Assembly (NCBI GenBank): GCA_947503965.1
Contig: CANNFU010000002.1
Coordinates: 372,001-436,000, forward strand
DNA length: 64,000 nt
From: an uncultured Paracoccaceae bacterium
GTDB taxonomy: Bacteria; Pseudomonadota; Alphaproteobacteria; Rhodobacterales; Rhodobacteraceae
Direction of reading: 5' to 3'
Shown: positions 35,387-54,486 of the stretch, one piece after another
Layout: each line of letters begins with the position of its first letter
Numbering within the stretch: the stretch's first letter is position 1
Made by a program: the position numbers and the translations under genes
Notes under the pieces: generated by a model
Databases searched by the model: none
What the model was told of the DNA's origin: nothing
Seen by the model: the letters and a program-made list of their open reading frames with translations, nothing else

Positions 35387-35859
35387 CGTCCCTTTGCTAC
35401 AGATCGGCATTCGTTTGGCGCGCAATAGGTGTCAAATAAGCTCAGAAAATCACCAACAAGAATTGAAAAATACTTCTGAAGCGCAAGCGCCCGTAACATC
35501 CCAAGAAGTGTGTCAGCCACATGCCCACATTGCGCTGGGCCCAATGGGTGTCGACAGAGCATTTCAAGGTGATCAGCAACGTCATTCACATCCGCCATCA
35601 CATGCGCATCCAAACCCAGATCGGTTCCAGATATATGCGTATATGCGATGACAAAGTCGCCCTTTCGGCGGGCCCAGACATCGATGAACAAAGTGATCTG
35701 TGGCGTAACAACACGCCGAAGATGCGCGATCCGCCGACCTTTGAAGCGCAAGGGGGGTTGCCCCTGGCGCCCAAGTACCACCATGTCCCACACATCAGGT
35801 ATGGACGTCGCGCGGCCCGAACCGCCCGGCATTGTATCCTGTTGTGCGCATAACATCAT
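35383..35859 (-). CDS. Uncharacterised protein, member A of a local paralogue family
   Basis: A 158-residue protein I cannot assign to a named family. Three segments match other proteins in this cluster: QPPLRFKGRRIAHL (34-47), ITLFIDVWARRKGDFVIAY (55-73) and YFSILVGDFLSLFD (130-143). They correspond to ARPLNFSGSELAMA, YEINLYRTTEQSFVTAI and HYQSLVGEFLYDLE in the gene at 37464-37949. The pattern suggests a small beta-sheet core followed by helices. GGAG nine bases before the ATG is its ribosome site. It is divergent from the pyp operon and overlaps the helix-hairpin-helix gene by four bases. Confidence 0.65.
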   Translation of the reverse strand: MMLCAQQDTMPGGSGRATSIPDVWDMVVLGRQGQPPLRFKGRRIAHLRRVVTPQITLFIDVWARRKGDFVIAYTHISGTDLGLDAHVMADVNDVADHLEMLCRHPLGPAQCGHVADTLLGMLRALALQKYFSILVGDFLSLFDTYCAPNECRSVAKGR

Positions 35860-36050: not shown

Positions 36051-36488
36051 ATGAGTGAAATTGGATGCCTCAGCGAATCTGAAGGGCAATATGAGTTTCG
36101 GGACCCCAGTCGTAGCCTCATTGTCAGGGGTGAACACCCCGAATGGGTCCTTCTGGCGGCCGCCGAGGTCATTGGAAACACTGCAAAGCTGGAAGCAGAA
36201 AGCGTGATTGAAGAGCTTAATGCAATGGTGGAATTCGAAGCGGCCGAACCAATTGAAGTCGATTCAGCGAAATATGCGCTGAAAGAAAGGTTCGAATTGA
36301 TACCACAATGCATCGTGACGGTTGGCAAACTGGATTATAAATGGGCGGCCGCCGAAGGACGCGCCAAAAAACAAGATGAATTTGGTGACCAAGCGCTGAA
36401 ACGCGTTCATGACATGTCTTTGACCCGCTCTGACACGTTCCTCGTGAATGAGAACGGCGATGACACCTCCAAAGAAACACAAGCCTAG
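36051..36488 (+). CDS. Uncharacterised protein at the head of the pyp operon
   Basis: A 145-residue acidic protein from ATG 36051 (AAAGGAG eight bases upstream). It starts with a segment of probable beta strands (YEFRDPSRSLIVRGEHPEWVLLAAAEVIG) and continues with helices rich in Glu/Ala. The end is charged and polar (DDTSKETQA). I recognise no motif. It is 15 bases upstream of pyp and surely co-transcribed, making it a candidate partner or output protein of the photoreceptor. It shows no clear similarity to the three local paralogues. Confidence 0.65.
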   Translation: MSEIGCLSESEGQYEFRDPSRSLIVRGEHPEWVLLAAAEVIGNTAKLEAESVIEELNAMVEFEAAEPIEVDSAKYALKERFELIPQCIVTVGKLDYKWAAAEGRAKKQDEFGDQALKRVHDMSLTRSDTFLVNENGDDTSKETQA

Positions 36489-36503
36489 AGCAAGGACAAT
36501 AAC

Positions 36504-36878
36504 ATGGAAATTATCCCCTTCGGCAGCCAAGATCTGGACAATATCCTGAACCGAGAGCCGCAACGCGCAGAGTATCTTCCATTTGGTGCAGTCATGCTGG
36601 ACCGGCATGGGAAAATCGTTAAATACAATAAGGCCGAGGGCCTGATTGCCAGTCGCACGCCCGAAGAAATGATCGGCAAGGATTTCTTCAACGATGTCGC
36701 CCCCTGCGCTAAAGGCAAGCGGTTTCACGGCGAGTTTCTGAAGTTTCACCGGACTGGTCAACTCAATGTCATGTTTGACTATAGGTTCGCCTACAAGGGT
36801 GCGGATGTCGGTGTGAAGATCCACCTCAAAGCACAACCAGACGGGCAGAATTGCTGGATGTTTGTAAAGCGCACTTAA
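36504..36878 (+). CDS. pyp: Photoactive yellow protein (blue-light receptor, PAS fold)
   Basis: The 124-residue protein matches Halorhodospira PYP from end to end. FGAVMLDRHGKIVKYNKAEG and IGKDFFNDVAPC align with the two core segments. The chromophore Cys (Cys69 there) is Cys68 in DVAPC. The phenolate-binding Tyr42 and Glu46 are Tyr41 and Glu45, and Arg52 is Arg51. The ending CWMFVKRT matches the PYP end YWVFVKRV. Two tuning positions differ: Thr50 is Ala49, and Met100 is Gly99. PYP binds p-coumaric acid by a thioester and isomerises in blue light. Genes for making and activating coumarate (tal, pcl) are in the same cluster. Confidence 0.95.
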   Translation: MEIIPFGSQDLDNILNREPQRAEYLPFGAVMLDRHGKIVKYNKAEGLIASRTPEEMIGKDFFNDVAPCAKGKRFHGEFLKFHRTGQLNVMFDYRFAYKGADVGVKIHLKAQPDGQNCWMFVKRT

Positions 36879-36903
36879 GGCGGACACGGAGGCACTGACG
36901 AAA

Positions 36904-37446
36904 ATGGCATCGCCTGCTGCATTGGATACAAATGTGATGATATCGCAAGAATTGCGAAATATTATCGCATGCCGCAGGAGGCAAAACGCGACATGTATTC
37001 AGACGTGCTCGGACCAATCAACTGCAGCATTACAAATCCGACCAGAATTGTCGGTAAATGCGCCTCGTTGGGCGCAGATAAAACTACGACGGGATGCTGA
37101 GAGGCCATTCGTATTTGATGGCCTCAATATCCTGCAGTTTTCGCGCCCTATGCAACTGGGTGACGTCGAGTGTCTTCATACTGTTTCACTTTACTTGTGC
37201 GCAGATCAGACATTCCAAATCGCCCTTAACTTGGACGTACCACATGATGCACCAGCGAGATCATCGTATCGGGTTTTTCCCATCCGAAACATGACATTAA
37301 ACAAGTGGATCGTCGATTGGTGCGCAGACCTTTGCGTCGTGGCGCAGAGTCTAAGACGTCCATTGAACCAAAGTACCGACCTTCGAGAAATGCAAGATGT
37401 GTTTCACCAAATGACCTCATACTGTTTCCGGTTTGAGAAGTTCTAG
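36904..37446 (+). CDS. Uncharacterised protein, member B of a local paralogue family
   Basis: A 180-residue protein 25 bases after pyp. Residues 1-60 are basic and Cys-containing with no recognised motif. ERPFVFDGLNILQF (66-79) and HTVSLYLCADQTFQIAL (92-108) align with the same two segments in the proteins at 35383-35859 and 37464-37949, though the C-terminal part is more diverged. The base composition is lower in GC and codon use less biased than the housekeeping genes, a hint of transfer. It contains 8 Cys in total. Function unknown; position suggests a role with PYP. Confidence 0.6.
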   Translation: MASPAALDTNVMISQELRNIIACRRRQNATCIQTCSDQSTAALQIRPELSVNAPRWAQIKLRRDAERPFVFDGLNILQFSRPMQLGDVECLHTVSLYLCADQTFQIALNLDVPHDAPARSSYRVFPIRNMTLNKWIVDWCADLCVVAQSLRRPLNQSTDLREMQDVFHQMTSYCFRFEKF

Positions 37447-37463
37447 ACAGAAAGGAACGACGC

Positions 37464-37949
37464 ATGACAACGATCATGGAAGTGACCCATAACGATGTGG
37501 CCTTGCAGGCAGGCGTGTCGCAGGTCGCGCAGAACGCGATGAGCTATGCAATTAAGCGTGTTGGTGCACGCCCATTGAACTTCAGCGGATCGGAGTTGGC
37601 AATGGCAATGAGCTACACGCCCTCCATTCCATATTGGTACGAGATCAATCTTTACCGCACTACAGAGCAAAGTTTTGTGACTGCAATCCGTCGTTTTCAT
37701 CAATCTGAGGACAAGCAAGATACGGTTCAGGCCTGGCAGTCAGAGACCCTTGAAGAAGCAATCGACAAGCTGACGGCCCATGACGCGGCGCACGACGTAC
37801 CCTTAGCGATAGAGATCGACACCGCAATAGCACCGGCGGCAGAGGTAGCTGCAATCGCGCTGCATTTACTTTCAGAGATTTCTGATACGCGCCGCCATTA
37901 CCAAAGCCTGGTTGGTGAGTTTCTTTATGATCTGGAAAGCGGCTCTTAA
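37464..37949 (+). CDS. Uncharacterised protein, member C of a local paralogue family
   Basis: A 161-residue protein. ARPLNFSGSELAMA (35-48), YEINLYRTTEQSFVTAI (59-75), a helix with SETLEEAIDKLTAHD (93-107), and HYQSLVGEFLYDLES (145-159) give the fullest match to member A on the opposite strand. The predicted form is a beta hairpin followed by helices. AGAAAGGAACGACGC lies upstream of the ATG, and the gene is 17 bases after member B. No named family comes to mind. Confidence 0.65.
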   Translation: MTTIMEVTHNDVALQAGVSQVAQNAMSYAIKRVGARPLNFSGSELAMAMSYTPSIPYWYEINLYRTTEQSFVTAIRRFHQSEDKQDTVQAWQSETLEEAIDKLTAHDAAHDVPLAIEIDTAIAPAAEVAAIALHLLSEISDTRRHYQSLVGEFLYDLESGS

Positions 37950-37996
37950 ATTCAGGTACCGGCGAATATGTCTTCCATTTCGACAATAACAAAACG

Positions 37997-39244
37997 GTGT
38001 CAAACGTGACAGCACTGTCAGAAGATGCTGTCAGGCGGATCCTTTTGAGTCTCATTGCAGTCGCGCAAGGAGAGATGATCCGAAAAGGCATAATAAGTGC
38101 AGAATGCACAATTGGCCTACACCAGCTTGGTAAAACAGATATACAGATAGATAACCTCGTTCTGGACGACGGCGAATTGGGATTTGATAGCCTGTCTCTC
38201 CTGAGCTTGGTCTCAACAGTAAACCAATTCTTTAACTTGCATCAGTCTGGGATCGAGGACTACTTACTTGTCAAGCGTCGTATTGGGGATTGGGTCGACC
38301 TGATCTCGCAGCATTTCGATCTGTGTGGTGACAATGTTTCTTTTTCGTTTCAGACCTCAGGTTCATTGGGTGCTCCGCAAACGATCACCCATCTTGCTGG
38401 GGCGCTGCGCGCCGAAATCTCGGGGCTGATTTCCGGCGGTATTCTACCGCTTCAACCGGGCACGCGGATAATCAGTCTGGTGCCACCGCATCACATTTAT
38501 GGTTTCTTATTCTCCTGTTTACTGCCAACGATCGCGGGTCTTGCCTTGGCCGATCTGCACCGGCTGCCGCCGACCAGCGCTTTGCGAAAGGCAAGTTCTG
38601 GCGATCTCATTGTGGCGACACCGTATATTTGGGACCACTTGGCGACTGCGAAGATGCGATTTCGATGCGATATTCATGGTATCAGCTCGGGGGGGCCATC
38701 GACCCAAGCGACTTGGTCTCTCATCGAAGATGGCGGGTTATCGACCTTAACGGAGATATATGGTGCAACCGAAACCGGCGGGGTTGGTTTTAGAAAAGTT
38801 AATACACAAGATTTTATGATGATGCCGCATCTTGCCCGCAAGGGTAACGCGATTTGGCGCAAAGACGTTAGCAATGCGCCGCTGGCGTTGCAGGACCATG
38901 TCGACTGGACAGGAAAACGCAGCTTTAGGATCTCAGGAAGGCGCGATAATGCTATCCAGATTGCCGGTGTCAACGTGTCACTCGATCATGTCGCTGATGT
39001 GATTGGCAGCTGTGCTGGTGTGCGCGGCGTGCATGTTCGTTTTGACGATGAACAGATCAAGGCATTCGTTGTCCCGGCAAATGGCGATGCGGACACCGGA
39101 CAATTGGCAGATGCCGTGCGGGCGCATATCAGTACCAATCTGGATCCCGTAGCAAGACCAGCCGAAATTCGTTTTGGTCCTGAAGCTCCGCGTAATGCGA
39201 TGGGAAAACTGCGCGACTGGTCGTCGATCAATTTGGCTGAATAA
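37997..39244 (+). CDS. pcl: p-Coumarate-activating AMP-forming ligase with N-terminal carrier-protein-like segment
   Basis: Adenylation motifs are present in a compact 415-residue protein: FQTSGSLGAPQTITH (core A3, though the usual PK is PQ), YGATETGGVGF (A5), SFRISGRRDNAIQIAGVNVSL (A7/A8) and RNAMGKLRDW with the catalytic Lys (A10). Residues about 45-100 resemble an acyl carrier protein: LGFDSLSLLSLVSTVNQFF has the D-S-L phosphopantetheine site (Ser65). In known PYP systems this enzyme makes p-coumaroyl-CoA for chromophore attachment. Start is GTG 37997 or GTG 38006. The gene separates the pyp group from gvpN. Confidence 0.85.
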   Translation: MSNVTALSEDAVRRILLSLIAVAQGEMIRKGIISAECTIGLHQLGKTDIQIDNLVLDDGELGFDSLSLLSLVSTVNQFFNLHQSGIEDYLLVKRRIGDWVDLISQHFDLCGDNVSFSFQTSGSLGAPQTITHLAGALRAEISGLISGGILPLQPGTRIISLVPPHHIYGFLFSCLLPTIAGLALADLHRLPPTSALRKASSGDLIVATPYIWDHLATAKMRFRCDIHGISSGGPSTQATWSLIEDGGLSTLTEIYGATETGGVGFRKVNTQDFMMMPHLARKGNAIWRKDVSNAPLALQDHVDWTGKRSFRISGRRDNAIQIAGVNVSLDHVADVIGSCAGVRGVHVRFDDEQIKAFVVPANGDADTGQLADAVRAHISTNLDPVARPAEIRFGPEAPRNAMGKLRDWSSINLAE

Positions 39245-39388
39245 CGCCTGACCGACAAGGCGCCGAAACGCATACCCGCCCGATGTCGAAACCTCGCATT
39301 CATCTCGCAACGGTTAATCAATACTTCACCCTAATCGCAGAAATTGGAGAAATCACGCGACAGGTAGACAAAAAAACTGGATCCAAGA

Positions 39389-40342
39389 TTGACCAAACAT
39401 CACATTTCAACGGAGCACCCAAACCAGGCCGCATTGGTGAATTGTGTCCCTGTCGCTTACAACCCTTGGCTTGGTCTACAAAGGGAACATAGGTTCTTTG
39501 AGAACGAAGAAGTGGCGGCATTGGTCCAAAGGGCGCTATTTTACGCGCGTGCCGGGGTGCCCGTGCATTTTCAGGGCACCGCTGGCCGTGGTAAAACGGC
39601 TGTCGCCATGGAAATTGCGAACCGGCTAGGCCGGGATGTACGTGTCATGACGGGTAATGATTGGCTTGATGTTGATGACATGATCGGCAAACAGGTTGGC
39701 CAGACGACCAGCTCTGTTGTCGACAAGTATATTCAAAGAGTGCGGCGTAGCGAAGCAACGCTGCGTTATGACTGGAAAAACTCCATGCTAGCCGACGCGA
39801 TGGTGCATGGGCATACGCTTGTGTATGATGAGTTTACCCGCGCCAGCGCACAGGCAAACGGGATTTTGCTAAGCGTTCTGGAGGAAGGTGTTCTTATCGC
39901 GACCGACCCCTTGGCGCCGGGCGAACACATTGAAGCCCATCCCGATTTCAGGATTATCCTGACATCAAACCCCGATGATTATTCGGGTGTGAACGCAACC
40001 CCGGACGCCTTGCTGGACCGCATGATAACCTTTCACATGCCGCGATACTCGCTGGAAACCGAAGGTGGCGTCGTGGCAACCCGTACCGGTATCCCAACAG
40101 ATCTTAGCATGCGGATTGTGAAGTTGGTTACTGCGCTGTCGACCACCGAAAAGGCGTGTTCCATGCGCGCGGCGATCATGATTGCCCAGATCGCCGCGAT
40201 GCGTCTGCGGTCCGCAAAGTTGTCGGATGCGCTGCTTGCACAGATCGGTGCTGACGTGCTCAGGGGACGCGGCGTTGATGTGACAACCGGACAAGTCGCC
40301 CGATATCTCAGCCAGTCAGATGAAAAGGAGACCGCAAAATGA
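39389..40342 (+). CDS. gvpN: Gas vesicle protein GvpN (AAA+ ATPase)
   Basis: The MoxR-like AAA+ core begins with VHFQGTAGRGKTAVAMEIAN (Walker A Lys69-Thr70), then LVYDEFTRASAQANGILLSVLEEG (Walker B) and FRIILTSNPDDYSGVN, which are typical of GvpN. GvpN is needed to grow vesicles to full width, in concert with GvpC or GvpO. The start is uncertain: TTG 39389 precedes the family-like region, and GTG 39437 is an alternative. Its stop overlaps the next small gene by four bases. A 144-base gap lies upstream, where a promoter may be. Confidence 0.93.
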   Translation: MTKHHISTEHPNQAALVNCVPVAYNPWLGLQREHRFFENEEVAALVQRALFYARAGVPVHFQGTAGRGKTAVAMEIANRLGRDVRVMTGNDWLDVDDMIGKQVGQTTSSVVDKYIQRVRRSEATLRYDWKNSMLADAMVHGHTLVYDEFTRASAQANGILLSVLEEGVLIATDPLAPGEHIEAHPDFRIILTSNPDDYSGVNATPDALLDRMITFHMPRYSLETEGGVVATRTGIPTDLSMRIVKLVTALSTTEKACSMRAAIMIAQIAAMRLRSAKLSDALLAQIGADVLRGRGVDVTTGQVARYLSQSDEKETAK

Positions 40343-40563
40343 AGCGCCCCAAAACCCAAATGCCACGACGTCCGCAAATGGCAAAAGGCGCGACGGCGCG
40401 TACGGCGAAAGATGCGGCGATCAACCTGGTCCGATTGGAATTTGATGCGGCCCGACTGCAAATGGGCCTGGATCAGGCACAAAATCGCGCTGCGAGTTAT
40501 CAACATGAACTGACGCGCAATGCCGAGCAGCGTCAACACTTACTTAACATTTTGAATGGATGA
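40339..40563 (+). CDS. Small helical protein between gvpN and gvpO
   Basis: A 74-residue basic protein overlapping gvpN by four bases (ATGA). The N-terminus is rich in Lys, Arg and Pro; the rest (INLVRLEFDAARLQMGLDQAQNRAASYQHELTRNAEQRQHLLNIL) looks like one long coiled-coil helix. I do not recognise it. Tight coupling to gvpN and gvpO implies a gas-vesicle accessory role, possibly in assembly. Confidence 0.65.
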   Translation: MKRPKTQMPRRPQMAKGATARTAKDAAINLVRLEFDAARLQMGLDQAQNRAASYQHELTRNAEQRQHLLNILNG

Positions 40564-40584
40564 AATGCCTGAAGGGAGCGCGAA

Positions 40585-40893
40585 ATGAAACACGAGGCAA
40601 AGGTCCAGTTCAAGACAGCGCAAAGCGATCAAGGCGCCCTGACCATGCTTGAGGCGATTGCCGCAGCAAAGTCGGCGATCGGAACGATGACCGGCCAGAC
40701 AATAGACTCGGTTGCCCAATGTGCGCGTCACGACAACGACCACTGGTCTGTGTCAATTGATGTCATCGAAAGCATGGCACGGCTGGGCGATAACGATCTT
40801 TTGGCCACCTATCAGGTCGAGATCGGGTCAAATGCAGAGCTGGTACAATTCAATCGTGTGCGCCGGTATCATCGCGAGGATCAGGATGCCTGA
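40585..40893 (+). CDS. gvpO: Gas vesicle protein GvpO
   Basis: A 102-residue protein whose C-terminal half, DHWSVSIDVIESMARLGDNDLLATYQVEIGSNAELVQFNRVRRYHRE, is the GvpO signature. GvpO is essential for vesicle formation in haloarchaea and actinobacteria. GAAGGGAGCGCGAA precedes the ATG, and the stop overlaps gvpJ by one base (TGATG). Confidence 0.92.
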   Translation: MKHEAKVQFKTAQSDQGALTMLEAIAAAKSAIGTMTGQTIDSVAQCARHDNDHWSVSIDVIESMARLGDNDLLATYQVEIGSNAELVQFNRVRRYHREDQDA

Positions 40894-41213
40894 TGGCCTA
40901 TGATATTCAAGGCCCCGCACAAGGTGATGGTCTTGCTGATGTGCTCGAACGCATTCTTGACAAAGGTGTCGTGATTGCCGGTGACGTCTCAATTTCACTC
41001 GTGGGGATCGAGCTGCTGACGATCCGCCTGCGTCTTTTGATCGCAACGGTCGATAAGGCCAAGGAAATGGGCATCAACTGGTGGGAAAATGATCCACGAC
41101 TTTCCGCGCAGGCGACCGTGCTTGAGGACCAGAACACTGCGCTCTTGGCGCGCATCGACGCTTTGGAGGCTAAATTGGCCGCGCAGCCACATGAAAGGTC
41201 GATAATATCATGA
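40893..41213 (+). CDS. gvpJ: Gas vesicle GvpA-family minor protein, GvpJ type
   Basis: [47 protein letters not shown] is the GvpA/J/M/S core of about 50 residues, with paired amphipathic strands. It differs from GvpA by the C-terminal INWWENDPRL and a coiled-coil tail, features of GvpJ/S proteins thought to nucleate vesicles. It lies in an unbroken run of overlapping genes (one base with gvpO, four with gvpH). Confidence 0.88.
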   Translation: MAYDIQGPAQGDGLADVLERILDKGVVIAGDVSISLVGIELLTIRLRLLIATVDKAKEMGINWWENDPRLSAQATVLEDQNTALLARIDALEAKLAAQPHERSIIS

Positions 41214-41749
41214 CGCACAAAAAAAGGAGCCGCGTTGAGGATGCCGCGAAAGAAATCGATGATGGCCTTGGTGCTTTGTTTGGCACGCTGAGCGCGGCCA
41301 TTGGCGAAATGGTCAACCGGATCGAAGACGGCAACACAGGCACGGTCGCGCGTGATCATGTCTTTGAGACGTCGAAGGGACCAGTCCGGGCTCATGCCGG
41401 GATCAGGTTGCGGATGGGCGGATTAGAACAGGATGTCGCGGCCGCAACGCCAGTCCCCGTGAACCCGGACAGACCGCAAACACCTCGCAAAAATCCGCCG
41501 GGCAAACCCATTGCCTACGAAGTCTTGGAAGACGATGATCATTGGATGCTGACGGCCGATCTGCCTGGCGTCTCAATCGGCGACCTGAACATCGGGCAGA
41601 ATGGCAGAACATTGGAAATACAAACGTCCGGTGCGCGCCGCTATGAAGGGCGCATTGATCTGGAAACCGATTTCTCAATCGAAGACATCGATCAGACCTT
41701 GCGCAATGGGATCCTGACGCTGCGCATCCGAAAGGCGGGGGCTGCATGA
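41210..41749 (+). CDS. gvpH: GvpH: Hsp20-like gas vesicle protein
   Basis: The C-terminal 85 residues (YEVLEDDDHWMLTADLPGVSIGDLNIGQNGRTLEI...FSIEDIDQTLRNGILTLRIRKA) are an alpha-crystallin domain. The N-terminal half has EIDDGLGALFGTLSAAIGEMVNRI, common in GvpH proteins. GvpH is a small heat-shock-type chaperone in vesicle assembly and, in haloarchaea, a regulator. It overlaps both neighbours by four bases. Confidence 0.9.
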   Translation: MTHKKRSRVEDAAKEIDDGLGALFGTLSAAIGEMVNRIEDGNTGTVARDHVFETSKGPVRAHAGIRLRMGGLEQDVAAATPVPVNPDRPQTPRKNPPGKPIAYEVLEDDDHWMLTADLPGVSIGDLNIGQNGRTLEIQTSGARRYEGRIDLETDFSIEDIDQTLRNGILTLRIRKAGAA

Positions 41750-42516
41750 TTTACCTTTATGGATTGGCTGCCGCTGATTGCGAACATGTTGCATCCCGAC
41801 TGGACGGCATGACGGGATTGCAAGCACCACTTCAGCAAACGCAGATCGGCGATTGGACATTGGTTCATTCCGACCATGACGATCAGGAAATCCTGCCGAA
41901 ACGAAGACTGTTGCTGGCACATACGACGGTATTGGAACAGATGGTGTCTATGGGTACCGTTCTTCCGGCCCGTTTTGGATTGGTTGCGAACGATATCGCC
42001 GAAGTGACAACGCTCATCCACGCGATGCAGGAAAAAATTGCCACCGAATTTGATAAGGTTCGCAGCGCGATTGAACTGGGTATCAGGGTATCTTTTCCAC
42101 GGCAGGCCGCGCTTGCCGCCACATTGCAGGACAATCCGCGCCTGCATGCCGAGCGGGCCGTATTGCAAAAGAAGGGTCCGCAGGCACATTTCGAGATTGC
42201 GGAGTTTGGGGGGAAGCTTGCCGACCACTTGGATCGACGGCGTGCGCAGGCACAACGCCGTTTACTTGATGCGTTGCTTCCAATGGCACGTGATCACGTC
42301 TTGCGCAAACCCGAAGAAGACACGGAAGTGCTGCGCGCAGAGTTTCTTGTTGATGAACAGATGCAGACGGCATTCGAAACCACGGTGACAACCGCAGCAT
42401 CAGATCTGGATTTTGCACCCGGAGAGGAGGCCAGCATACAGGTCATCGGACCTGTGCCAATGTATAATTTTGTGCGCTTGAACCTGACATTCGACGTCGA
42501 TCAGGCTGCCGCCTGA
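41746..42516 (+). CDS. gvpF: GvpF/GvpL family gas vesicle protein (1 of 4)
   Basis: A 256-residue GvpL/F protein. It starts with IYLYGLA, has the central VLPARFGLVANDIAEV (the LP-x-RFG-type motif) and RVSF, and ends with ASIQVIGPVPMYNFVRLNLTF, the family's terminal I-x-G-P-x-P-x-Y-x-F motif. GvpF contacts GvpA and helps start the vesicle. Overlaps gvpH and gvpG. Which of the four F/L genes equals F or L is not decidable by eye; this one keeps the most family motifs. Confidence 0.88.
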   Translation: MIYLYGLAAADCEHVASRLDGMTGLQAPLQQTQIGDWTLVHSDHDDQEILPKRRLLLAHTTVLEQMVSMGTVLPARFGLVANDIAEVTTLIHAMQEKIATEFDKVRSAIELGIRVSFPRQAALAATLQDNPRLHAERAVLQKKGPQAHFEIAEFGGKLADHLDRRRAQAQRRLLDALLPMARDHVLRKPEEDTEVLRAEFLVDEQMQTAFETTVTTAASDLDFAPGEEASIQVIGPVPMYNFVRLNLTFDVDQAAA

Positions 42517-42746
42517 TGGGGCTGGTGCGCGCCCTTCTGACACTTCCCGTGAAGGGGCCTGTACAGAGCGGACTTTGGGTTGCCCGCAAGGTACACGAAA
42601 CCGCTGAGGTCGAATTCAACGACCCCGCGGCTTTGCGCAAAATGCTTGTCTCGCTTGAACAGCAATTGCTGAATGGCGACATCAGCGAAGCCGCCTATGA
42701 CAAGGCTGAGACCGAAATTCTGATGCGGCTGAGGGGGCTGCGATGA
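42516..42746 (+). CDS. gvpG: Gas vesicle protein GvpG
   Basis: A 76-residue protein. LLTLPVKGPVQSGLWVARKVHETAEVEFNDPAALRKMLVSLEQQLLNGDISEAAYDKAETEIL is the full GvpG pattern (P-x-x-G-x-x-W-x-x-x-x-I/V, then a short coiled coil). It overlaps its neighbours by one and four bases and supports assembly with GvpF/L. Confidence 0.93.
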   Translation: MGLVRALLTLPVKGPVQSGLWVARKVHETAEVEFNDPAALRKMLVSLEQQLLNGDISEAAYDKAETEILMRLRGLR

Positions 42747-44848: not shown

Positions 44849-45773
44849 ACTGCTTGCCCTGCTTCCCCGGTCCGACAGCCTACCCGATATCGCAGGGCTG
44901 CAACATGTGCGCACATCGGGGTACATGGCCCTGTTATCGGATGTCCCCCGCGCGATCATGGCCTTGCCCCAAAGCCGCAAACAGGCGCTTTCGACTGCGG
45001 CAACCCGACAGGCGCTGCTGGAAAAGTGTATGGGTCGCGGGCCCCTTATCGTGTGTCGACCCCACTATCATATCGCCAGAACCGAGATCGCGGGTCTGAT
45101 CAGCGCGAACCGGCCGCTATTGGACAGATTGGCGCTGCGCCTTTGCGATAAGGTGCAATATCAGGTCTCGGTCAGTTGGACACCGGATGCGGTGCTCAAC
45201 CGATTTCGCGATACCGAGGAACTGGCTCCACTTTTTCGCGCAAAGCAGGTTAGCCCTGAGAGTATCGAGCGCGCGGTATGCGCCTTGGCCGAACGATTGG
45301 CAGACCAGATTACCCAGTCGCTTTACGCGGTTTCGGTTGAAATGCTGCGCCTGCCGAACGGGCCAGATATGCTCTGCAATCTCGTTTTGCTGCTGGACGA
45401 AGGCGAAATCAGCAAACTGGATCAAGCGGTTGAGGCGATCGATGCCATCTGGACAGAAGGGTTCAGGATCAAACAAATCGGTCCAGCGCCCGCCGCATCA
45501 TTTGTCTTGCTTGACCCAAAAACCGTCAGCCCGGACGAAGTGAGCGCGGCCTTCAAACATCTTGGTTTGCTCAAGAACGCCACCGCGGATGACATCGCGC
45601 GGGCGCGCAAACATGCTTTGCAACGTGCACCGCAACATGCCGCATACAGTAAGCATTGCGCGGATATCGCCCATGCAGCATTGCATGCAACTTGCGATGG
45701 CCAACCGCTGATCCTGTGTACTGTTCATTCCGAAGATCAGGCGGGCCCCACCGCACAAAGGCAGGTGGCCTGA
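44835..45773 (+). CDS. gvpL: GvpF/GvpL family gas vesicle protein, long form (2 of 4)
   Basis: From ATG 44835 (AGAAGG upstream) it has 312 residues. VQYQVSVSWTPDAVLNRFRD, the coiled-coil centre and LYAVSVEMLRLPNGPDMLCNLVLLLDEGEISKLDQAV are GvpL/F-like, and FRIKQIGPAPAASFVLL is the family end motif. The extra 80 residues after that motif (VSAAFKHLGLLKNATADDIARARKHALQ) resemble a degenerate J domain, without H-P-D. It starts inside the end of the AAA+ gene and ends two bases before the next. Confidence 0.8.
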   Translation: MKRFELLALLPRSDSLPDIAGLQHVRTSGYMALLSDVPRAIMALPQSRKQALSTAATRQALLEKCMGRGPLIVCRPHYHIARTEIAGLISANRPLLDRLALRLCDKVQYQVSVSWTPDAVLNRFRDTEELAPLFRAKQVSPESIERAVCALAERLADQITQSLYAVSVEMLRLPNGPDMLCNLVLLLDEGEISKLDQAVEAIDAIWTEGFRIKQIGPAPAASFVLLDPKTVSPDEVSAAFKHLGLLKNATADDIARARKHALQRAPQHAAYSKHCADIAHAALHATCDGQPLILCTVHSEDQAGPTAQRQVA

Positions 45774-45774
45774 C

Positions 45775-46488
45775 ATGCCGCTGATCCAGCTTCACGGGCT
45801 CGTCCCCGGCACGACACGGAAAGTGTCGCATGGACCAATACATCACTTGCTGGATTGCGGCGACATTGGTGCATTGACCAGCCCCGTGGCCGACGACATG
45901 GATTTTGAAGACCCAACGGCATTGGCCAATTGGGCAAGCACTCATAACAGGATTCTTCTGGCCTATTGCGCAACCCATCCGGTTTTGCCCATGTCGATCG
46001 GGGCTGTCTTTTCGAACCAACGAGCCCTGCGCACAAAGATCGAAGATAACATTGATGAATATCGGGCCGCACTTGATGTGCTTCGAGACGTGCAAGAATT
46101 CACGATCCAACTGCAGGTCACCGACCGCATACCGACGACACCGACCATATCCGCAACTGGTCGCGACTTTTTGTTGGCACGCCGGACTCAGCGTGATCGT
46201 CGAACCGATCTAAAAGCGGATCAAGTAAAAATGGCGCGCGATATCGTCGCTCAACTACAGCAATACAGCTTGCAGATCACATCAAATACCCCGCCAAAGG
46301 CGGACCGACTTCTCGCTTGTTCCGCGCTTATTCAGAGAACCGCGCAACCAAAGCTACGACAGTTGGCGCAAAGGCTGCATCAACCAGCGCTCGATCTGGG
46401 GTTGGACCTTGTCGTGACAGGTCCCTGGCCGCCCTATTCATTCGACGTCAGCAACATATCCGCGCTTGAGGGTTGCGATGGGTGTTGA
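45775..46488 (+). CDS. GvpF/GvpL family gas vesicle protein (3 of 4)
   Basis: A 237-residue GvpF/L protein: PLIQLHGLVPG at the start, YCATHPVLPMSIGAVFSN in the centre, RRTQRDRR and the end motif LDLVVTGPWPPYSFDVSNI. The G-P-W-P-P-Y-S-F form is the most canonical of the four copies. Its last 11 bases overlap the small GvpA-type gene. Confidence 0.86.
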   Translation: MPLIQLHGLVPGTTRKVSHGPIHHLLDCGDIGALTSPVADDMDFEDPTALANWASTHNRILLAYCATHPVLPMSIGAVFSNQRALRTKIEDNIDEYRAALDVLRDVQEFTIQLQVTDRIPTTPTISATGRDFLLARRTQRDRRTDLKADQVKMARDIVAQLQQYSLQITSNTPPKADRLLACSALIQRTAQPKLRQLAQRLHQPALDLGLDLVVTGPWPPYSFDVSNISALEGCDGC

Positions 46489-46690
46489 ACTGCATCTGGC
46501 AACCGCTGATGAGGTGTTATGCTCAGGTGATGACCGCCTCGTCGATCTGGTGGACGGGTTGTTGCACCACGGCGTCGTCGTCCGTGGAGAACTGTGGTTG
46601 ACGGTTGCGGATGTCGATCTGGTGTTTCTGGGCGTCGATCTACTTCTCGCTGCACCACATAAAATTCGCCCCGCGGACCAGCCAACATGA
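46478..46690 (+). CDS. Gas vesicle GvpA-family minor protein, GvpM/S type
   Basis: A 70-residue protein from ATG 46478. RLVDLVDGLLHHGVVVRGELWLTVADVDLVFLGVDLLLAAP follows the GvpA fold with changes typical of the minor M/S paralogues, such as ELWLTVADVDLVFLG for the GvpA core [14 protein letters not shown]. It overlaps the preceding gene by 11 bases and the following gene by four, and lacks the long tail of GvpJ. Confidence 0.82.
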   Translation: MGVELHLATADEVLCSGDDRLVDLVDGLLHHGVVVRGELWLTVADVDLVFLGVDLLLAAPHKIRPADQPT

Positions 46691-47304
46691 TCGGGCTCGG
46701 CTGGACATCCGAAACCGCCACTGTCCCGGATGGTCTGAGACTGCACGGCGACGGGCCGATCAGGGCGCTCTGTGCTCCGACAGCGGTTTCAAAAACGGCG
46801 CGGGATCGGCTCGGGATGCAGGTCCGATCTTTTGACGCGGGAATTGATCTTTTGCCCATCGCCCCATCGCATCAGATTTCCTCGCAACAAGCGATAAGCA
46901 TGATGAGAACGGCAGATATGGCACCGATAATCACACAGCTGAAAACAAAGGGGCAACTGACCCTCTCGGTCCAGCAGCCCCAAATCGCAACAGACCCGAT
47001 ATCTGATGGCCGGTCCTGGCTTGCCGCACGTAAGAACCGCCATGATGTCCGCGCGAATCAGGCCGACTTATTGCACCATATCGCCGCGTTGGCGGGTCGC
47101 CCCGTCTCACCATTACGCCGCACAAACCACTGCGTACAATGCGATATTCTGGTCGAACGATCTGAAGCTGACAAGCTGAAGGATCAATTGGCGCACCACC
47201 TTCACGGTTCATCGGGCCTTGTCGAAGGCGTCATATCCATTACCGGATTATGGCCCCCATTTGGTTTTGCCGACTTGCAGCGACTTGGGGCCAGTGCCGC
47301 ATGA
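46687..47304 (+). CDS. GvpF/GvpL family gas vesicle protein, short and diverged (4 of 4)
   Basis: A 205-residue protein with only weak family identity in the first half. The SWLAARKNRHDVRANQADLLHHIA segment and the end VEGVISITGLWPPFGFADLQRLG carry the GvpF/L end pattern (I-x-G-x-W-P-P-F-x-F). Overlaps its neighbours by four bases on each side. It may be a specialised adaptor. Confidence 0.75.
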   Translation: MIGLGWTSETATVPDGLRLHGDGPIRALCAPTAVSKTARDRLGMQVRSFDAGIDLLPIAPSHQISSQQAISMMRTADMAPIITQLKTKGQLTLSVQQPQIATDPISDGRSWLAARKNRHDVRANQADLLHHIAALAGRPVSPLRRTNHCVQCDILVERSEADKLKDQLAHHLHGSSGLVEGVISITGLWPPFGFADLQRLGASAA

Positions 47305-47630
47305 TCGCACCCTTCGAAATCGCCGCCGCCGATCTGCAGGACACATTGACGCGTGTCGCAGACGCGGGCGGACGTGTGCAGATCGACCCCGATCGGGTGG
47401 AAAATGATCTTGCCCGGCTCGTTCTTGGGCTGATGGAATTCTTACGGCAATTGATGGAATTGCAGGCCATTCGCCAGATGGAACATGGATATCTGACAGA
47501 AGAGCAAGAAGAAAAACTGGGAACCACCTTGATGCGCGCAGAGGCGGCCATCCACGACCTCGCCGCCAAATTCGATCTGACGCCCGAGGATCTTTCCCTT
47601 GATTTGGGGCCATTAGGCCGAACGATCTGA
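47301..47630 (+). CDS. gvpK: Gas vesicle protein GvpK
   Basis: From ATG 47301 it has 109 residues. RVQIDPDRVENDLARLVLGLMEFLRQLMELQAIRQMEHGYLTEEQEEKLGTTLMRAE is the GvpK signature. The end EDLSLDLGPLGRTI is also usual. It overlaps the previous gene by four bases and closes the long run of overlapping gvp genes. Confidence 0.93.
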   Translation: MIAPFEIAAADLQDTLTRVADAGGRVQIDPDRVENDLARLVLGLMEFLRQLMELQAIRQMEHGYLTEEQEEKLGTTLMRAEAAIHDLAAKFDLTPEDLSLDLGPLGRTI

Positions 47631-47737
47631 TCGAATGGTAACGTCCTGTCAATAACTTCGCGCTAACCAAGACACTGGGGACTAGCGGATCGGCAAGGCA
47701 GGTTCGACATCATGCGGGCTGAGCAGGATAAACAGTA

Positions 47738-49579
47738 ATGGGGACATCGTTTCAGTCGCATATCCAACGCCTTCAGCAGGCTGGGATCGCGACACATTTG
47801 GTTGAAAACGCCGATGCCGTTGATCCACTTTTTGCGCTCGCCAAGGTTCGCGACTTTCCACAGGTTACATTCGCAGCCGTGTTCGAAAACGGATCGGTGG
47901 TGTTAGGCTGTCACGATACATTGCCCCCCCAACTTCAGGACATTGCTCAACCCATTGTTGCGACGGATGAACGGCCATCTGATGACCTGATGGCGAAAAT
48001 GGATGCGCTGCACGAAGCCGTTCGAACGTCCTCGGATGTGGCCGCGTCAGATGTGATGGCACAGCTATCAGCCATTCAGGCCACGCTCGACCAGCAGGGC
48101 CAGACCGCAGCGCAAGTCGCGGATCGGCTGACAGAGTTCGAAAATCAGTTCGCCGAAAGTCGTGAGGCGATCACCGCAAAACTGCCGGATGACGGTGCAC
48201 TCGAAACGATAGCCACGCAACTGTCCGCCTTGCAAGACACTATCAAGGATTTCTCTGATCACGACGCACTGACGGCGATCCGCGCCGATCTGGCAGCCCT
48301 GACCGCGCAAGGCGAAGCGGCACCACCGGACTTTGAGGCGTTGTTGAACCAACACGCGAACGATATCATCGCACAGGTATCAAACGCCTTTCCAAAACCT
48401 GCACCAATCACTGATCTCTTAGATGGGCAGCGCATGTTGCAGCAATCGCTTGCTGAGGTGGCTGACACTGTTCAGACCATGCTTACCGCCTCGACGGCAA
48501 GCGACCAAGCTGCGCACCCTGCCCTGCCGGATATTCTTGATCGCCTCAATCAGTTGACTGGGTTGAGCGACATGGTCACGCAAATCCCAGAGCAGATTGC
48601 GATACTTGGTGAAAAAATCACTGCGCCCGATCCGCAGCCCGACAATCACTTGGCAAAACAAATCAGCGATTTGTCGGACCAGATCGCCATTCTTGGATCA
48701 CGCCCCGATCCGGTAATCGACCTGACAGAACAACGACAGATCCTGGCGCGATTTCAAACTGCAATGTCCACGGTACTGTCCCGGCTGGAAAACCAAATTG
48801 AATGCGTGTCGTCCCTGCAGCAGGATGACACGGTCGCGCAGCTCCGTTGGGACAGTGTCACTGAAAAAATGCAGGCGTTGTCCGAAAGTATCGCACCTCT
48901 GGCAGATCTACCAAACAGGATCGCGGCGATTGATACGCAGCTTCAACAACTTCCCGAAGCTCAGGACGCAGTGTTGCGCACCTTGAATGATTTGAAGCGA
49001 CGCCCTGATCCCGCTCTTGATCTGACAGAGCAACGACAAAGCCTCGCGCAGTTCGCAAGCGCAGTTGGTACGGCGGTAAAACGGCTGGAAATGGTTGCTG
49101 AACAGTTAACCCACGACAAAACCGATACCGACATCATGCCCACATTGGCCCGGATGGAAGACCTGTTTAGAACAACGCACGCGCAAGACAACCAAATGGA
49201 TCTTGGTCAGGCACTAGCCGCGCACGGCAGCGAGATCGCAGCGCTCAAAACAGATATCGTCGCTTATCTGGAACGTCCTGCGCCTGCGCCGGATCTGACC
49301 ATGCAGCGCGCTAGTCTTGCGCGGTTTGCGACAGCGCTTGGCACCGTCGTTTCGCGGTTTGAAAGGATCGCCGCGCAGTTCGAAACGGTGACTGAAACCC
49401 AGCCGCCGCCTTGTGCCGACGCCGCGCCACCAGCAGCACCGTTGGCGCCCCGGCCGTTTGCCCATGCCGATATCTCTTTCGACGCCCTGCGGACAGGCTT
49501 GGCCGAACTGATTGCGCAGCAGATCATGAACAGTGGCTCATCCAACAAGATGCCCTGCGCAGATCCGTCAAAACCCTAA
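47738..49579 (+). CDS. Large coiled-coil repeat protein in the gvp cluster (possible GvpC counterpart)
   Basis: A 613-residue hydrophilic protein with no signal peptide or membrane span. Residues 80-210 and the inter-repeat segments read as long coiled coils. A roughly 33-residue unit recurs four times, at residues 220-250, 322-355, 422-455 and 513-546. It is built as R-P-x-P-x-x-D-L-T-x-Q-R-x-x-L-A-x-F-x-x-A-x-x-T-x-x-x-R-L/F-E, in steps of 91-102 residues. No GvpC is otherwise seen in the cluster. Cyanobacterial GvpC also has 33-residue repeats that clasp the vesicle wall, so this could be its counterpart; sequence similarity is not obvious. It lies between gvpK (107-base gap) and gvpA. Confidence 0.75.
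   Translation: MGTSFQSHIQRLQQAGIATHLVENADAVDPLFALAKVRDFPQVTFAAVFENGSVVLGCHDTLPPQLQDIAQPIVATDERPSDDLMAKMDALHEAVRTSSDVAASDVMAQLSAIQATLDQQGQTAAQVADRLTEFENQFAESREAITAKLPDDGALETIATQLSALQDTIKDFSDHDALTAIRADLAALTAQGEAAPPDFEALLNQHANDIIAQVSNAFPKPAPITDLLDGQRMLQQSLAEVADTVQTMLTASTASDQAAHPALPDILDRLNQLTGLSDMVTQIPEQIAILGEKITAPDPQPDNHLAKQISDLSDQIAILGSRPDPVIDLTEQRQILARFQTAMSTVLSRLENQIECVSSLQQDDTVAQLRWDSVTEKMQALSESIAPLADLPNRIAAIDTQLQQLPEAQDAVLRTLNDLKRRPDPALDLTEQRQSLAQFASAVGTAVKRLEMVAEQLTHDKTDTDIMPTLARMEDLFRTTHAQDNQMDLGQALAAHGSEIAALKTDIVAYLERPAPAPDLTMQRASLARFATALGTVVSRFERIAAQFETVTETQPPPCADAAPPAAPLAPRPFAHADISFDALRTGLAELIAQQIMNSGSSNKMPCADPSKP
48395..49375 (+). repeat. Four internal coding repeats of the large coiled-coil protein
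   Basis: Units lie at 48395-48487 (most degenerate), 48701-48802, 49001-49102 and 49274-49375. Units 2 and 3 share RPDPxxDLTEQRQ; unit 4 has RPAPAPDLTMQRASLARF; unit 1 has KPAPITDLLDGQRMLQQSL. They are protein repeats; DNA identity between them is only partial. Confidence 0.8.
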
Positions 49580-49593
49580 GATTGTCGCTATCT

Positions 49594-49622
49594 TTGCTGC
49601 AAGATCAACACAATATTATGGT
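49594..49622 (+). promoter_or_regulatory. Possible sigma-70 type promoter for gvpA
   Basis: TTGCTG (49594-49599) and TATGGT (49617-49622) are separated by 17 bases, 71 bases before the gvpA start. A separate promoter would explain high expression of the main wall protein at the end of the cluster. Assignment by pattern only. Confidence 0.3.
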
Positions 49623-49692
49623 CTGCAGGATAACCATCAAAGGGCCTTATGACCCATGGGGCTGAAAGCGTTGTCAAATGATGGAGAGAATA

Positions 49693-49905
49693 ATGGCAAT
49701 CGAAAAAAACATTGCATCGGCCTCAATTGCAGAGGTTGTCGATCGCATCCTCGACAAAGGTATTGTGATTGATGCATTCGTTCGGATTTCACTGGTCGGC
49801 ATCGAACTGATCGCGATCGAGGTACGCGCGGTTGTGTCCTCGGTGGAAACCTGGCTGAAATATGCAGAGGCCGTTGGCCTGACGGTCGACCCGGCCACTG
49901 CCTAA
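49693..49905 (+). CDS. gvpA: Major gas vesicle structural protein GvpA
   Basis: A 70-residue protein: [58 protein letters not shown] is nearly the consensus GvpA sequence, including DRILDKG, the RxSLVGIEL strand pair and the YAEAVGLT end. GvpA polymerises into the ribbed vesicle wall. ATG 49693 follows GGAGAGAATA. It is the last gvp gene and converges on tal, with only 7 bases between the stop codons. Confidence 0.97.
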
Positions 49906-49912
49906 AAGATGC

Positions 49913-51502
49913 TTAACCGGCCGGCGGGGCCTCAGTGGCGATAGCAGCAGCTATCGCCTCGATGTCCCGCCCAAGCGGTCTGTCTTCTGTCAGGCGGGGG
50001 CTGGTTTCTCTGACATATCCACGCAATCTCTGTGCGCTTTCGGAAAATGCCAGATCGCCGCTTGTCTCCGATTGCAGATCAATGGCCTGCGCCAGACACA
50101 GTGCCAAGATGGCCTGGATTTGAGACAGCATCTTTAACTTGGTCTGCACGTGCCGCGCGGCAATCGTACCCATCGAGACAACATCCTGGTTTGCCCCATT
50201 GGTCGAAATTGACTGCACCGAGGCCGCGCCGATCATCCGCATCTCGGCCAAAAGCGCCGTTGCCGTGACCTGGGCACCCATGAAACCGGAATTTAACCCC
50301 GGCGCCCCTTGATGCAGAAAAGCAGGCAATCCCCGGTTCAGTGTCTCATCCGTGATCCGGGCAACCTGTCGTTCCGCCAGCCCCGCCAGAACACAAAGCG
50401 CGTTTGCCAACGCATCCGATGCCAGGCCCACATGCTGGCCCATGAAGTTACCACCATGTAAAACAAGCACGTCGTCCGCCTCCGCTGGCGGGAAAATGGG
50501 GTTGTCAGTCACGGATGTCAGCTCGGTCAAGACAATCTGATTGTGCCAGTCTAGGGTATCCCACACAGCACCGATCACTTGCGGCGCGCAGCGCAGCGTA
50601 TACGCATCCTGTGCCGCATGCTCTTCTGTTCTAGGCCCCAGATCGGTCAAACGACGATCAGCCAGATGCGTCCGGATCACCCGTTCGCTTCCCGTCAGAT
50701 GGTGCCGCAATTGGTCCGCCGCGTCGCCTTGGCGCGCATGCGGTCGCAACTGCGCAAAGGCAGGATGCCATGCCTCGACCCGGCCCTGTTGCGTTTCGGC
50801 CATCGCCGCCGTCAGCGCAATCGACCAAGCAACGGCGCGCCCGGCCTGATCAGCATTCAGCACGGCAATCCCTGTCATCGCCGACGTGCCATTCACCAGC
50901 GCCAGCCCATCACGGCGCGTCAGATCGATGGGCTGCAAACCAAGGTGCTCCAGCGCTGCTGCCCCTGCAAGCACATGGCCCGCCCGATCCGAAAATGCGC
51001 CACGGCCTTGAAAGCACAACACCATATGGGCCAGCGGCGTCAGATCACCCGACGCGCCCACCGTCCCCTGACTGGGCAGGCAAGGTGACAGATCCGCGTT
51101 TAGCAGCGTGACCAAAGTCCCAATTGCCGCATCCGAAGCCCCGGATGCCCCTTGCAAAATCGACATCAATCGCGCCAAGACCACCGCCCGCCCACTGGCC
51201 CAATCAAGGTTGGGACCAACGCCGCTGGCAAGGTGGTGCACCAGATTTTGCTGCAACGCAGCGCCGCATGATTTGTCCACCAATCTGTTGGCCAGCGGCC
51301 CGAAACCGGTCGTCAGCCCGTAAACATGACGATCCTCTGCAATCACCTGCTGAAGCCGGTCATGCGACGCAGCACAACGGGCCGACGCACCGGGGTGCAA
51401 TGCGATCCTGACTGCGCCGTCAATAATGGCCCTTGCGTCCGCCAGCGACAGATCGCGATCCAGAATAATGCGATCTGTCTGCACTGTGTTTGTCGGGCGC
51501 AT
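49913..51502 (-). CDS. tal: Tyrosine ammonia-lyase (makes p-coumarate for PYP)
   Basis: A 529-residue MIO enzyme. GTVGASGDLTPLAHM gives the Ala150-Ser151-Gly152 triad that forms the MIO cofactor. The selectivity loop NLVHHLASGVGP has His at position 90, aligning with His89 of the R. sphaeroides tyrosine ammonia-lyase, where this residue sets tyrosine over phenylalanine preference. RHVYGLTTGFGPLANR carries the catalytic Tyr61. It deaminates tyrosine to p-coumaric acid. ATG 51502 follows GGAGGGGTCG. Converging on gvpA, with PYP and a coumarate ligase in the cluster, its role in chromophore supply is clear. Confidence 0.95.
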   Translation of the reverse strand: MRPTNTVQTDRIILDRDLSLADARAIIDGAVRIALHPGASARCAASHDRLQQVIAEDRHVYGLTTGFGPLANRLVDKSCGAALQQNLVHHLASGVGPNLDWASGRAVVLARLMSILQGASGASDAAIGTLVTLLNADLSPCLPSQGTVGASGDLTPLAHMVLCFQGRGAFSDRAGHVLAGAAALEHLGLQPIDLTRRDGLALVNGTSAMTGIAVLNADQAGRAVAWSIALTAAMAETQQGRVEAWHPAFAQLRPHARQGDAADQLRHHLTGSERVIRTHLADRRLTDLGPRTEEHAAQDAYTLRCAPQVIGAVWDTLDWHNQIVLTELTSVTDNPIFPPAEADDVLVLHGGNFMGQHVGLASDALANALCVLAGLAERQVARITDETLNRGLPAFLHQGAPGLNSGFMGAQVTATALLAEMRMIGAASVQSISTNGANQDVVSMGTIAARHVQTKLKMLSQIQAILALCLAQAIDLQSETSGDLAFSESAQRLRGYVRETSPRLTEDRPLGRDIEAIAAAIATEAPPAG

Positions 51503-51660
51503 CGACCCCTCCGGCAATCTGTTTGCCGGACACTAGCTGTTTTCTGGTTAACGTAATCCTAAGGGCTGCATGACGAAGGAAATTTGGGATGGCGCAGGCG
51601 AAGGAAAGAAATCCTTAAAGATACACGCGTATGGAACAGTCCTGAAATGAAGGATTGGTC

Positions 51661-54477: not shown

Positions 54478-54486
54478 TGCCGCACG

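Follow-up and report, generated by a model that had tools for sequence, protein, structure and literature searches.

A photoactive yellow protein gene within a gas-vesicle cluster, and two unnamed protein families as its candidate partners, in a Yoonia-like member of the Rhodobacterales

The 64,000-nucleotide window analysed here (contig C2:372001-436000), from the 4.65 Mb genome of a Yoonia-like member of the Rhodobacterales, carries the gene of photoactive yellow protein (PYP), two enzyme genes expected to supply its chromophore and a gas-vesicle (gvp) gene cluster, together with two unnamed protein families, called h1 and the h3 family (h2, h3 and b), and a chemoreceptor/CheW pair. Our best reading is that this block forms one light-responsive buoyancy module in which light would be coupled to the vesicles, and we give a probability of about 0.5 to the proposal that PYP signals to gas vesicles through h1 and h3-family proteins. 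An earlier sequence-only reading had described pyp, a ligase and an ammonia-lyase around a full gvp set, and had suggested that blue light may tune buoyancy or that PYP may report light to cells that float. The genes, residues and coordinates that it gave are all correct, and the position at which it began, 36051, is the start of h1; the parts that it did not include, namely h1, h2, h3, b and the chemoreceptor/CheW pair, are the most informative ones of the block. The genes on which the argument turns are the following.

35383..35859, minus strand: b, about 158 aa, h3 paralogue by profile-profile comparison with h3
36051..36488, plus strand: h1, unnamed, 145 aa, 15 bases upstream of pyp
36504..36878, plus strand: pyp, photoactive yellow protein, 124 aa; TIGR02373 at 175.6 bits (cut-off 143.05) over residues 2-123
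36904..37446, plus strand: h2, 180 aa, diverged h3 paralogue by profile-profile comparison with h3 and b
37464..37949, plus strand: h3, 161 aa, type member of the paralogous family, which co-occurs with pyp
37997..39244, plus strand: 4-coumarate--CoA ligase, PYP type; TIGR02372 at 399.6 bits (cut-off 334.7), profile positions 2-386 of 386
49913..51502, minus strand: tyrosine ammonia-lyase (TAL) with His90; PF00221 E 2.8e-142, PDB 2o6y E 8e-179
51655..54477, plus strand: soluble chemoreceptor with about five PAS domains (five PAS_9 stretches) and MCPsignal, no strongly hydrophobic segment
54487..55911, plus strand: CheW protein with three CheW stretches; PF01584 E 8.2e-43

Twenty successive forward genes occupy positions 36051-49905, with intergenic gaps of -98 to 144 bases when each frame except h1 is taken from its first start codon. 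Their order is h1, pyp, h2, h3, ligase, gvpN, a small open reading frame, gvpO, gvpJ, an HSP20-like gene, gvpF/L, gvpG, a Cdc48-like ATPase gene, two further gvpF/L genes, a GvpA-family gene, h5, gvpK, a coiled-coil gene and gvpA. As the sequence-only reading had said, the three chromophore genes are arranged around the gvp set, with pyp and the ligase upstream and TAL convergent behind gvpA; b is divergent at 35383-35859, and the chemoreceptor/CheW pair (51655-55911) lies behind TAL. The profile scores, together with the same block in other genomes, exclude chance.

The evidence that carries our reading is the company that pyp keeps in other genomes (L and G numbers are our identifiers for loci and genomes). 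Of the 39 pyp loci in our table, 21 have gvp genes no more than 20 kb away in the DNA available and 18 do not; L021, with two PYPs, and L027, in two pieces, each count as one locus, and L033, a partial PYP unmatched by the profile, is left out. An h3-family gene lies within 3.5 kb of pyp in 21 of the 21 gvp-linked loci versus 4 of the 18 others, and three of those four (L014, L015 and L017) have gvp genes elsewhere in the genome. h1 accompanies pyp at 15 of the linked loci and at three of the others, again L014, L015 and L017, while five gvp clusters from PYP-less genomes (L061, L062 and L136-L138, of which L138 is only 3.6 kb long) gave neither an h3-family nor an h1 match. Where pyp and gvp lie apart in L014 (158 kb) and L015 (on another contig), h3-family genes are found at both places, those at gvp lying near gvpA (L072/L098 and L100). 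Relatives of b stand upstream of h1 in 10 of 28 named loci, and in Acetobacteraceae more h3-family members are present both up- and downstream of pyp. The short contigs of L021, L023 and L025 show only a gvpA-like gene beside pyp, the other gvp genes being on other contigs. Searches around G637 (3 genomes of its genus and 9 of its family) added one more unlinked pyp locus, L143.

The linkage itself is confined to a part of the PYP family. In the family sample (394 genomes, 393 genera) PYP was found in five genomes and a strong three-copy gvp cluster in seven, all five being among the seven; pyp lies within 20 kb of gvp in four of the five, and in G253 the two are about 158 kb apart on one contig. 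This gvp count leaves out G377 and G217, whose single partial hits in long frames were the only ones over the Pfam cut-off, and four further genomes with hits below it. Among the 28 genomes of named pyp relatives, which were collected by similarity to the window PYP, 23 have a GvpA-family gene. In the class sample (337 genomes), PYP was present in nine genomes, gvp in five and both in two, those two being linked; with the window genome set aside, gvp was found in one of eight PYP genomes. The sequence-only reading had proposed a comparison of relatives for conserved linkage and had named pyp mostly without gvp as the outcome that would speak against it: inside the family sample every PYP genome also has gvp, whereas across the class that outcome is seen, seven of the nine lacking gvp. 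Close relatives thus show a strong association that does not extend to PYPs in general; the class sample rules out linkage as a rule for all PYPs, and the seven genomes without gvp therefore make the link a property of a PYP subgroup.

A PYP tree of 39 rows delimits such a subgroup. A single clade of 24 rows (support 96/94) unites 20 of the 21 gvp-linked rows with L014, L015, L017 and L022, and every row in the clade has an h3-family neighbour. The lone gvp-linked row outside, L129, is long-branched and unplaced. Placing the gvp-linked label on the tree takes 4 changes, and no fewer than 3 are forced by the starred branches. Taxonomically the clade takes in Rhodobacterales, Rhodoblastus, Sphingomonadales and rows of Acetobacteraceae/Rhodospirillales type; L027 (in-frame stop) and L033 (partial) are left out of the tree, and L021 gives two rows. 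This breadth bears on the possibility that there is no direct signalling and that the neighbourhood of pyp and gvp comes from joint horizontal transfer of a surface-water gene island. Such an origin would fit the sporadic distribution, 3 of 40 genomes in the genus sample, and the class-wide majority of PYP genomes without gvp (7 of 9), but linkage with the same h3 family is kept across several alphaproteobacterial orders, with PYP identity down to 42-48%, and L014 and L015 carry h3-family genes at gvp clusters that are separate from pyp. We consider it very unlikely.

Judged from their sequence profiles, b, h2 and h3 are paralogues of one family. In profile-profile comparisons of separately aligned groups, h3 matched b at E 7.8e-11 (probability 97.1) and h2 at E 1.9e-6 (89.7), and h2 matched b at E 1.7e-7. 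A relationship of h1 to this family was ruled out, the probability being 0.1 to 1.5 against six of six h3-type groups. No known domain was found in h1, h2, h3 or b in Pfam at E 0.001 or in NCBIfam at E 0.1, with the sole exception of h3 against EXLDI in NCBIfam (E 0.037, far under the EXLDI cut-off), and sequence searches of the PDB with the h3-family and h1 profiles returned at best E 0.089 and 0.28. The AlphaFold2 model of h3, with a predicted local distance difference test (pLDDT) score of 88.1, consists of a sheet of five strands, short helices and, at the C-terminus, a helix of 35 residues that may pair with another.

This fold also raises the possibility that the h3 family acts on gene expression, with PYP releasing or capturing a DNA- or RNA-binding regulator that sets gvp transcription. 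The five-strand sheet followed by a long helix gave a Borrelia Pur-alpha nucleic-acid-binding domain as the top-probability hit, with a WGR domain also among the hits. The best Pur-alpha match has a probability of 0.96 at E 0.073 and a target template-modelling (TM) score of 0.56, and is not significant; across the Borrelia Pur-alpha domains the target TM is 0.51-0.56 over 61-84 alignment columns. Rhodobacter gvp genes are under CtrA control, and in R. capsulatus also under FnrL control, according to the available parts of PMC7232146 and PMC11999139, and transcriptional control of gvp therefore exists. However, of 717 matches of the h3 model in the PDB none had an E value of 0.001 or lower, searches of h1, h2, h3 and b gave no helix-turn-helix family, and the presence of multiple paralogues per locus fits a protein-binding role as well. 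Control of gene expression by the h3 family appears unlikely to us.

The chemoreceptor and CheW stand by the gvp block in 14 of the 18 h1-bearing genomes (the window, L006-L016, L020 and L031), and neither was seen in the available DNA of L017, L018, L019 and L129. Where complete, the chemoreceptor is 916-977 aa long; in L012 it is split into two frames of 656 and 327 aa. The two genes are adjacent in 11 of the 14 blocks (fewer than 200 bases between matches, or abutting frames), their matched parts are about 1.2 kb apart in L014 and L015, and L031 has a weak CheW match (24%) that gvpA separates from the chemoreceptor gene. The five gvp clusters of PYP-less genomes hold no such pair, L062 giving one weak chemoreceptor hit (28%). 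G140, a genome with no PYP and no gvp match, has a b-like gene, a shortened h1 frame (70 residues, about 64 of them matching h1), a PAS chemoreceptor that lacks its front and a CheW gene (L096:9416-13311). This arrangement looks like a scar from internal loss in the block, and therefore would support h1 and the chemoreceptor as former parts of one block.

It is possible that PYP signals to the chemoreceptor and CheW, and hence to taxis, and that the vesicles are merely co-inherited and co-regulated for near-surface life. The frequency of the pair among h1-bearing genomes is in line with this, as are the fusions of methyl-accepting chemotaxis protein (MCP) and PYP reported in the part of PMC12826048 that was available, a frame in our locus L127 with MCP-like and PYP stretches, and, in the sections of PMC11999139 at hand, the CtrA control of both gvpN and the chemoreceptor gene mcpB in Cereibacter sphaeroides. 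On the other hand, in L014 and L015 the pair remains at gvp and not at pyp; six linked loci of Acetobacteraceae/Sphingomonadales/Rhodospirillales type have pyp, the h3 family and gvpA and no such chemoreceptor in the DNA available, some of their contigs being short; and flagellin, matched in 26 of 28 searched genomes (25 above the cut-off), gave no match in the window genome or in G408 (L020). We regard a pathway from PYP to taxis alone as quite unlikely. On the contig that holds the pyp block, and about 115 kb away from it, the window genome has a che cluster (L224:6857-13799; C2 about 286.9-293.8 kb) encoding a CheY-like protein, CheA (689 aa), CheW, CheR, a receiver protein and a Cache-HAMP chemoreceptor; the search covered about 1.67 Mb of the 4.65 Mb genome. 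A chemosensory pathway thus appears to persist in it without detectable flagellin, the sole flagellar gene searched, and pili-based movement of the organism is possible.

In the mechanism that we propose for signalling from PYP to gas vesicles, TAL would make p-coumarate, the ligase would activate it and PYP would bind it, as the membership of these proteins in their families implies. Cells probably produce PYP and the vesicle proteins jointly, because h1, pyp, h2, h3, the ligase gene and gvpN to gvpA are co-directional and separated by short gaps. In the central step, UV-A or blue light would change the shape of PYP and cause binding of h1 and/or h3-family proteins, and these would relay the signal to gas-vesicle assembly or expression. 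More tentatively, the PAS chemoreceptor and CheW could pass another input, perhaps redox or oxygen, to the CheA pathway, and buoyancy and other movement might thereby be adjusted jointly. That there is a PYP subgroup dedicated to vesicles, which signals via b/h2/h3 and h1 and controls assembly directly, with the chemoreceptor and CheW tying the organelle to CheA, seems doubtful at present; on that reading, in a genome with a che cluster and no flagellin match, chemosensory signalling would steer buoyancy and not a flagellum.

Several observations weigh against the proposal. L022 has pyp and the h3 family and no gvpA in its genome bin, h1 is absent from 6 of the 21 gvp-linked loci, and L017, the third case in which pyp and gvp are split, has no h3-family gene on its gvp contig. 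The h3 family matched 8 of the 394 family-sample genomes, the five with PYP and also PYP-less G140, G051 and, weakly, G008. The island is sporadic and rare: in the genus sample only 3 of 40 genomes have h1. Of 24 genomes whose pyp locus is of the h3 type, only 14 (the window and 13 of 23 named genomes) yielded a close TAL homologue at E 1e-120 or better, G637 being left out of the search. The h1 model is poor (pLDDT 59) and was not taken to a fold search, and the lack of any significant fold match for h3 counts here as well. Some contigs are short (L127 7 kb, L138 3.6 kb), and in L130 pyp is at the contig end. Finally, the h1 and h3 profiles were trained on most of the counted loci, and only the class sample and four plasmid records with pyp are independent of them. 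The single gvp-linked pyp locus of the independent class sample has h1 and the h3 family, and its nine unlinked pyp loci have neither; among plasmid records, PYP was matched in four at E 1e-8, and there was no h1 or h3 match at E 1e-4.

The chromophore genes are what the sequence-only reading had taken them to be. Its pyp is a true PYP by TIGR02373 and by alignment, in which Tyr41, Glu45, Arg51 and Cys68, the residues that it had pointed out, correspond to 42, 46, 52 and 69 of the solved Halorhodospira PYPs. The coumarate-activating ligase that it placed at 37997-39244 is of the PYP type, scoring above the TIGR02372 cut-off, and its TAL matches the Rhodobacter TAL 2o6y, the His included. The best PDB matches of TAL are 2o6y (E 8e-179, aligned over 12-526) and the variant 2o78 (E 9.6e-178). 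At the residue aligned with His90, 2o6y has H and 2o78 has F, and we take this position to set tyrosine selectivity; the run GTVGASGDLTPL in the alignment to 2o6y contains the Ala-Ser-Gly that is presumably the cofactor triad. The curated scores of pyp and the ligase and the residue matches rule out chance or misannotation of the three genes. Relative to the Halorhodospira proteins, the window PYP has Ala49 in place of Thr50 and Lys98/Gly99 in place of Gln99/Met100; Lys-Gly at 99/100 is also present in Rhodobacter PYPs. Its closest named relatives are those of Yoonia sp. F2084L (99% PYP identity) and Y. maricola (95%), and it is 93% identical to PYP of Rhodobacter sp. KR11 and 78% to that of Cereibacter johrii. 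Table 1 of PMC12826048, a source available in part, gives absorption at 435/375 nm with 1 ms for R. capsulatus and 446/360 nm with 2 ms for R. sphaeroides. Because of these values and the likeness of the window PYP to PYPs of those genera, a fast, partly UV-absorbing protein is likelier than a pure 445 nm one, and the 445 nm colour that had been expected of it may be wrong.

Some of the other loci have unusual chromophore genes. The pyp of Roseococcus thiosulfatophilus RB-3 (L027:10001-10372) has an in-frame stop at the codon of the chromophore-pocket tyrosine, and its near relative in L026 is intact at that codon, but Gln replaces Glu46. An uncultured Rhodospirillales contig has two tandem pyp genes (L021:6220-7274), and the open frame at L127:4884-6773, with its PYP stretch C-terminal to the MCP-like one, is an apparent chemoreceptor-PYP fusion. 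In L061 (G051), a gvp cluster in a genome with no PYP match, a 61%-identical TAL lies beside gvpA; it may be an orphan or a remnant of a pyp part that was lost.

The full gvp set from gvpN to gvpA reported by the sequence-only reading is borne out by profile matches and a motif search: gvpA, N, O, J, F/L, G and K are all present, gvpF/L in three copies, and there is in addition an S/M-like gene.

39389..40342, plus strand: gvpN, MoxR-type AAA ATPase; AAA_5 E 8e-15, named by position and similarity in other gvp clusters
40339..40563, plus strand: small conserved gvp-cluster open reading frame, 74 aa; no Pfam match
40585..40893, plus strand: gvpO; PF05800 E 2.7e-16
40893..41213, plus strand: gvpJ (GvpA family); PF00741 E 1.9e-17
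41210..41749, plus strand: HSP20-like, probably gvpH; PF00011 E 2.7e-4, 21.4 bits (cut-off 20.8)
41746..42516, plus strand: first gvpF/L; PF06386 E 1.7e-46
42516..42746, plus strand: gvpG; PF05120 E 2e-20
42743..44848, plus strand: Cdc48-like AAA ATPase; PF00004 E 9e-87, TIGR01243 E 1.6e-197 (below cut-off)
44751..45773, plus strand: second gvpF/L; PF06386 E 1.6e-13
45775..46488, plus strand: third gvpF/L; PF06386 E 2.8e-32
46466..46690, plus strand: GvpA-family minor protein, S/M-like; PF00741 E 5.1e-11
46687..47304, plus strand: h5, conserved gvp-cluster open reading frame, 205 aa; same-place counterparts in several clusters, no Pfam match
47250..47630, plus strand: gvpK; PF05121 E 2.6e-32
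47738..49579, plus strand: h6, coiled-coil protein with three internal repeats seen by eye; weak coiled-coil type matches only
49678..49905, plus strand: gvpA, main shell protein, 75 aa; PF00741 E 1.9e-16, motif search

Counterparts of the 74 aa frame, 32-77% identical, lie between gvpN and gvpO in 11 named loci. The two-domain Cdc48-like ATPase has counterparts in many gvp clusters and no match in the available blocks of L007, L009, L017, L020 and G051. h6, between gvpK and gvpA, varies among species, with counterparts 24-38% identical in seven loci, and could coat or tether vesicles. Promoter and terminator scans were uninformative (11 and 20 sites versus 9.7 and 18.3 expected), and the CtrA-type motif TTAA-N7-TTAA has no match in the window.

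The locus offers specific candidates for PYP partners, h1 and the h3 family, which were chosen by co-occurrence and come with a measurable output, the gas vesicles. If light directly controls vesicle formation, the block could become a genetic tool for light-switched buoyancy or ultrasound contrast. Kyndt et al. 2004 reportedly dealt with the pyp-gvp cluster of R. capsulatus, and Kim et al. 2021 is said to concern a PYP-binding protein (PBP) of that species. The available part of PMC9664959 states that in some studies single-domain PYPs bound signalling proteins whose genes lie nearby, and cites, among others, Kim 2021 and Kyndt 2004 on R. capsulatus. Because Kim 2021 is cited there among such cases, an h1 or h3-family protein may be a PBP homologue, and the adaptor idea may already be partly known for R. 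capsulatus. The relay of the PYP signal is called unknown or a gap in the available text of both PMC9664959 and PMC12826048. The main text of these two PYP surveys, as far as it was available, has no word beginning with 'vesic' or 'gvp', and the gvp-linked PYP subgroup therefore seems to have been overlooked there. A literature search that covered few subscription papers turned up nothing on the h3 family, on its paralogues or on the linkage of the chemoreceptor.

The linkage of pyp and gvp has precedent. The available text of PMC3646047 states that in Loktanella sp. SE-62 and in R. capsulatus the gvp clusters lie near a PYP gene, and for the latter this agrees with what the sequence-only reading said of Rhodobacter. 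What our analysis adds is the adaptor candidates and the chemoreceptor. The window shares the core gvp gene set with the Octadecabacter gvp cluster, and the three chromophore genes pyp, pCL and TAL with the pyp operon of Halorhodospira halophila. The latter, however, is a three-gene operon according to the part of PMC12826048 available, whereas in the window the three genes are interspersed with and flanked by the gvp cluster, h1, the h3 family and the chemoreceptor. The closest likeness in arrangement is to the Rhodobacter-type cluster, with pyp within the gvp block: as in R. capsulatus, pyp stands beside gvp genes and encodes a similar PYP, judged via those of Rhodobacter sp. KR11 and Cereibacter.

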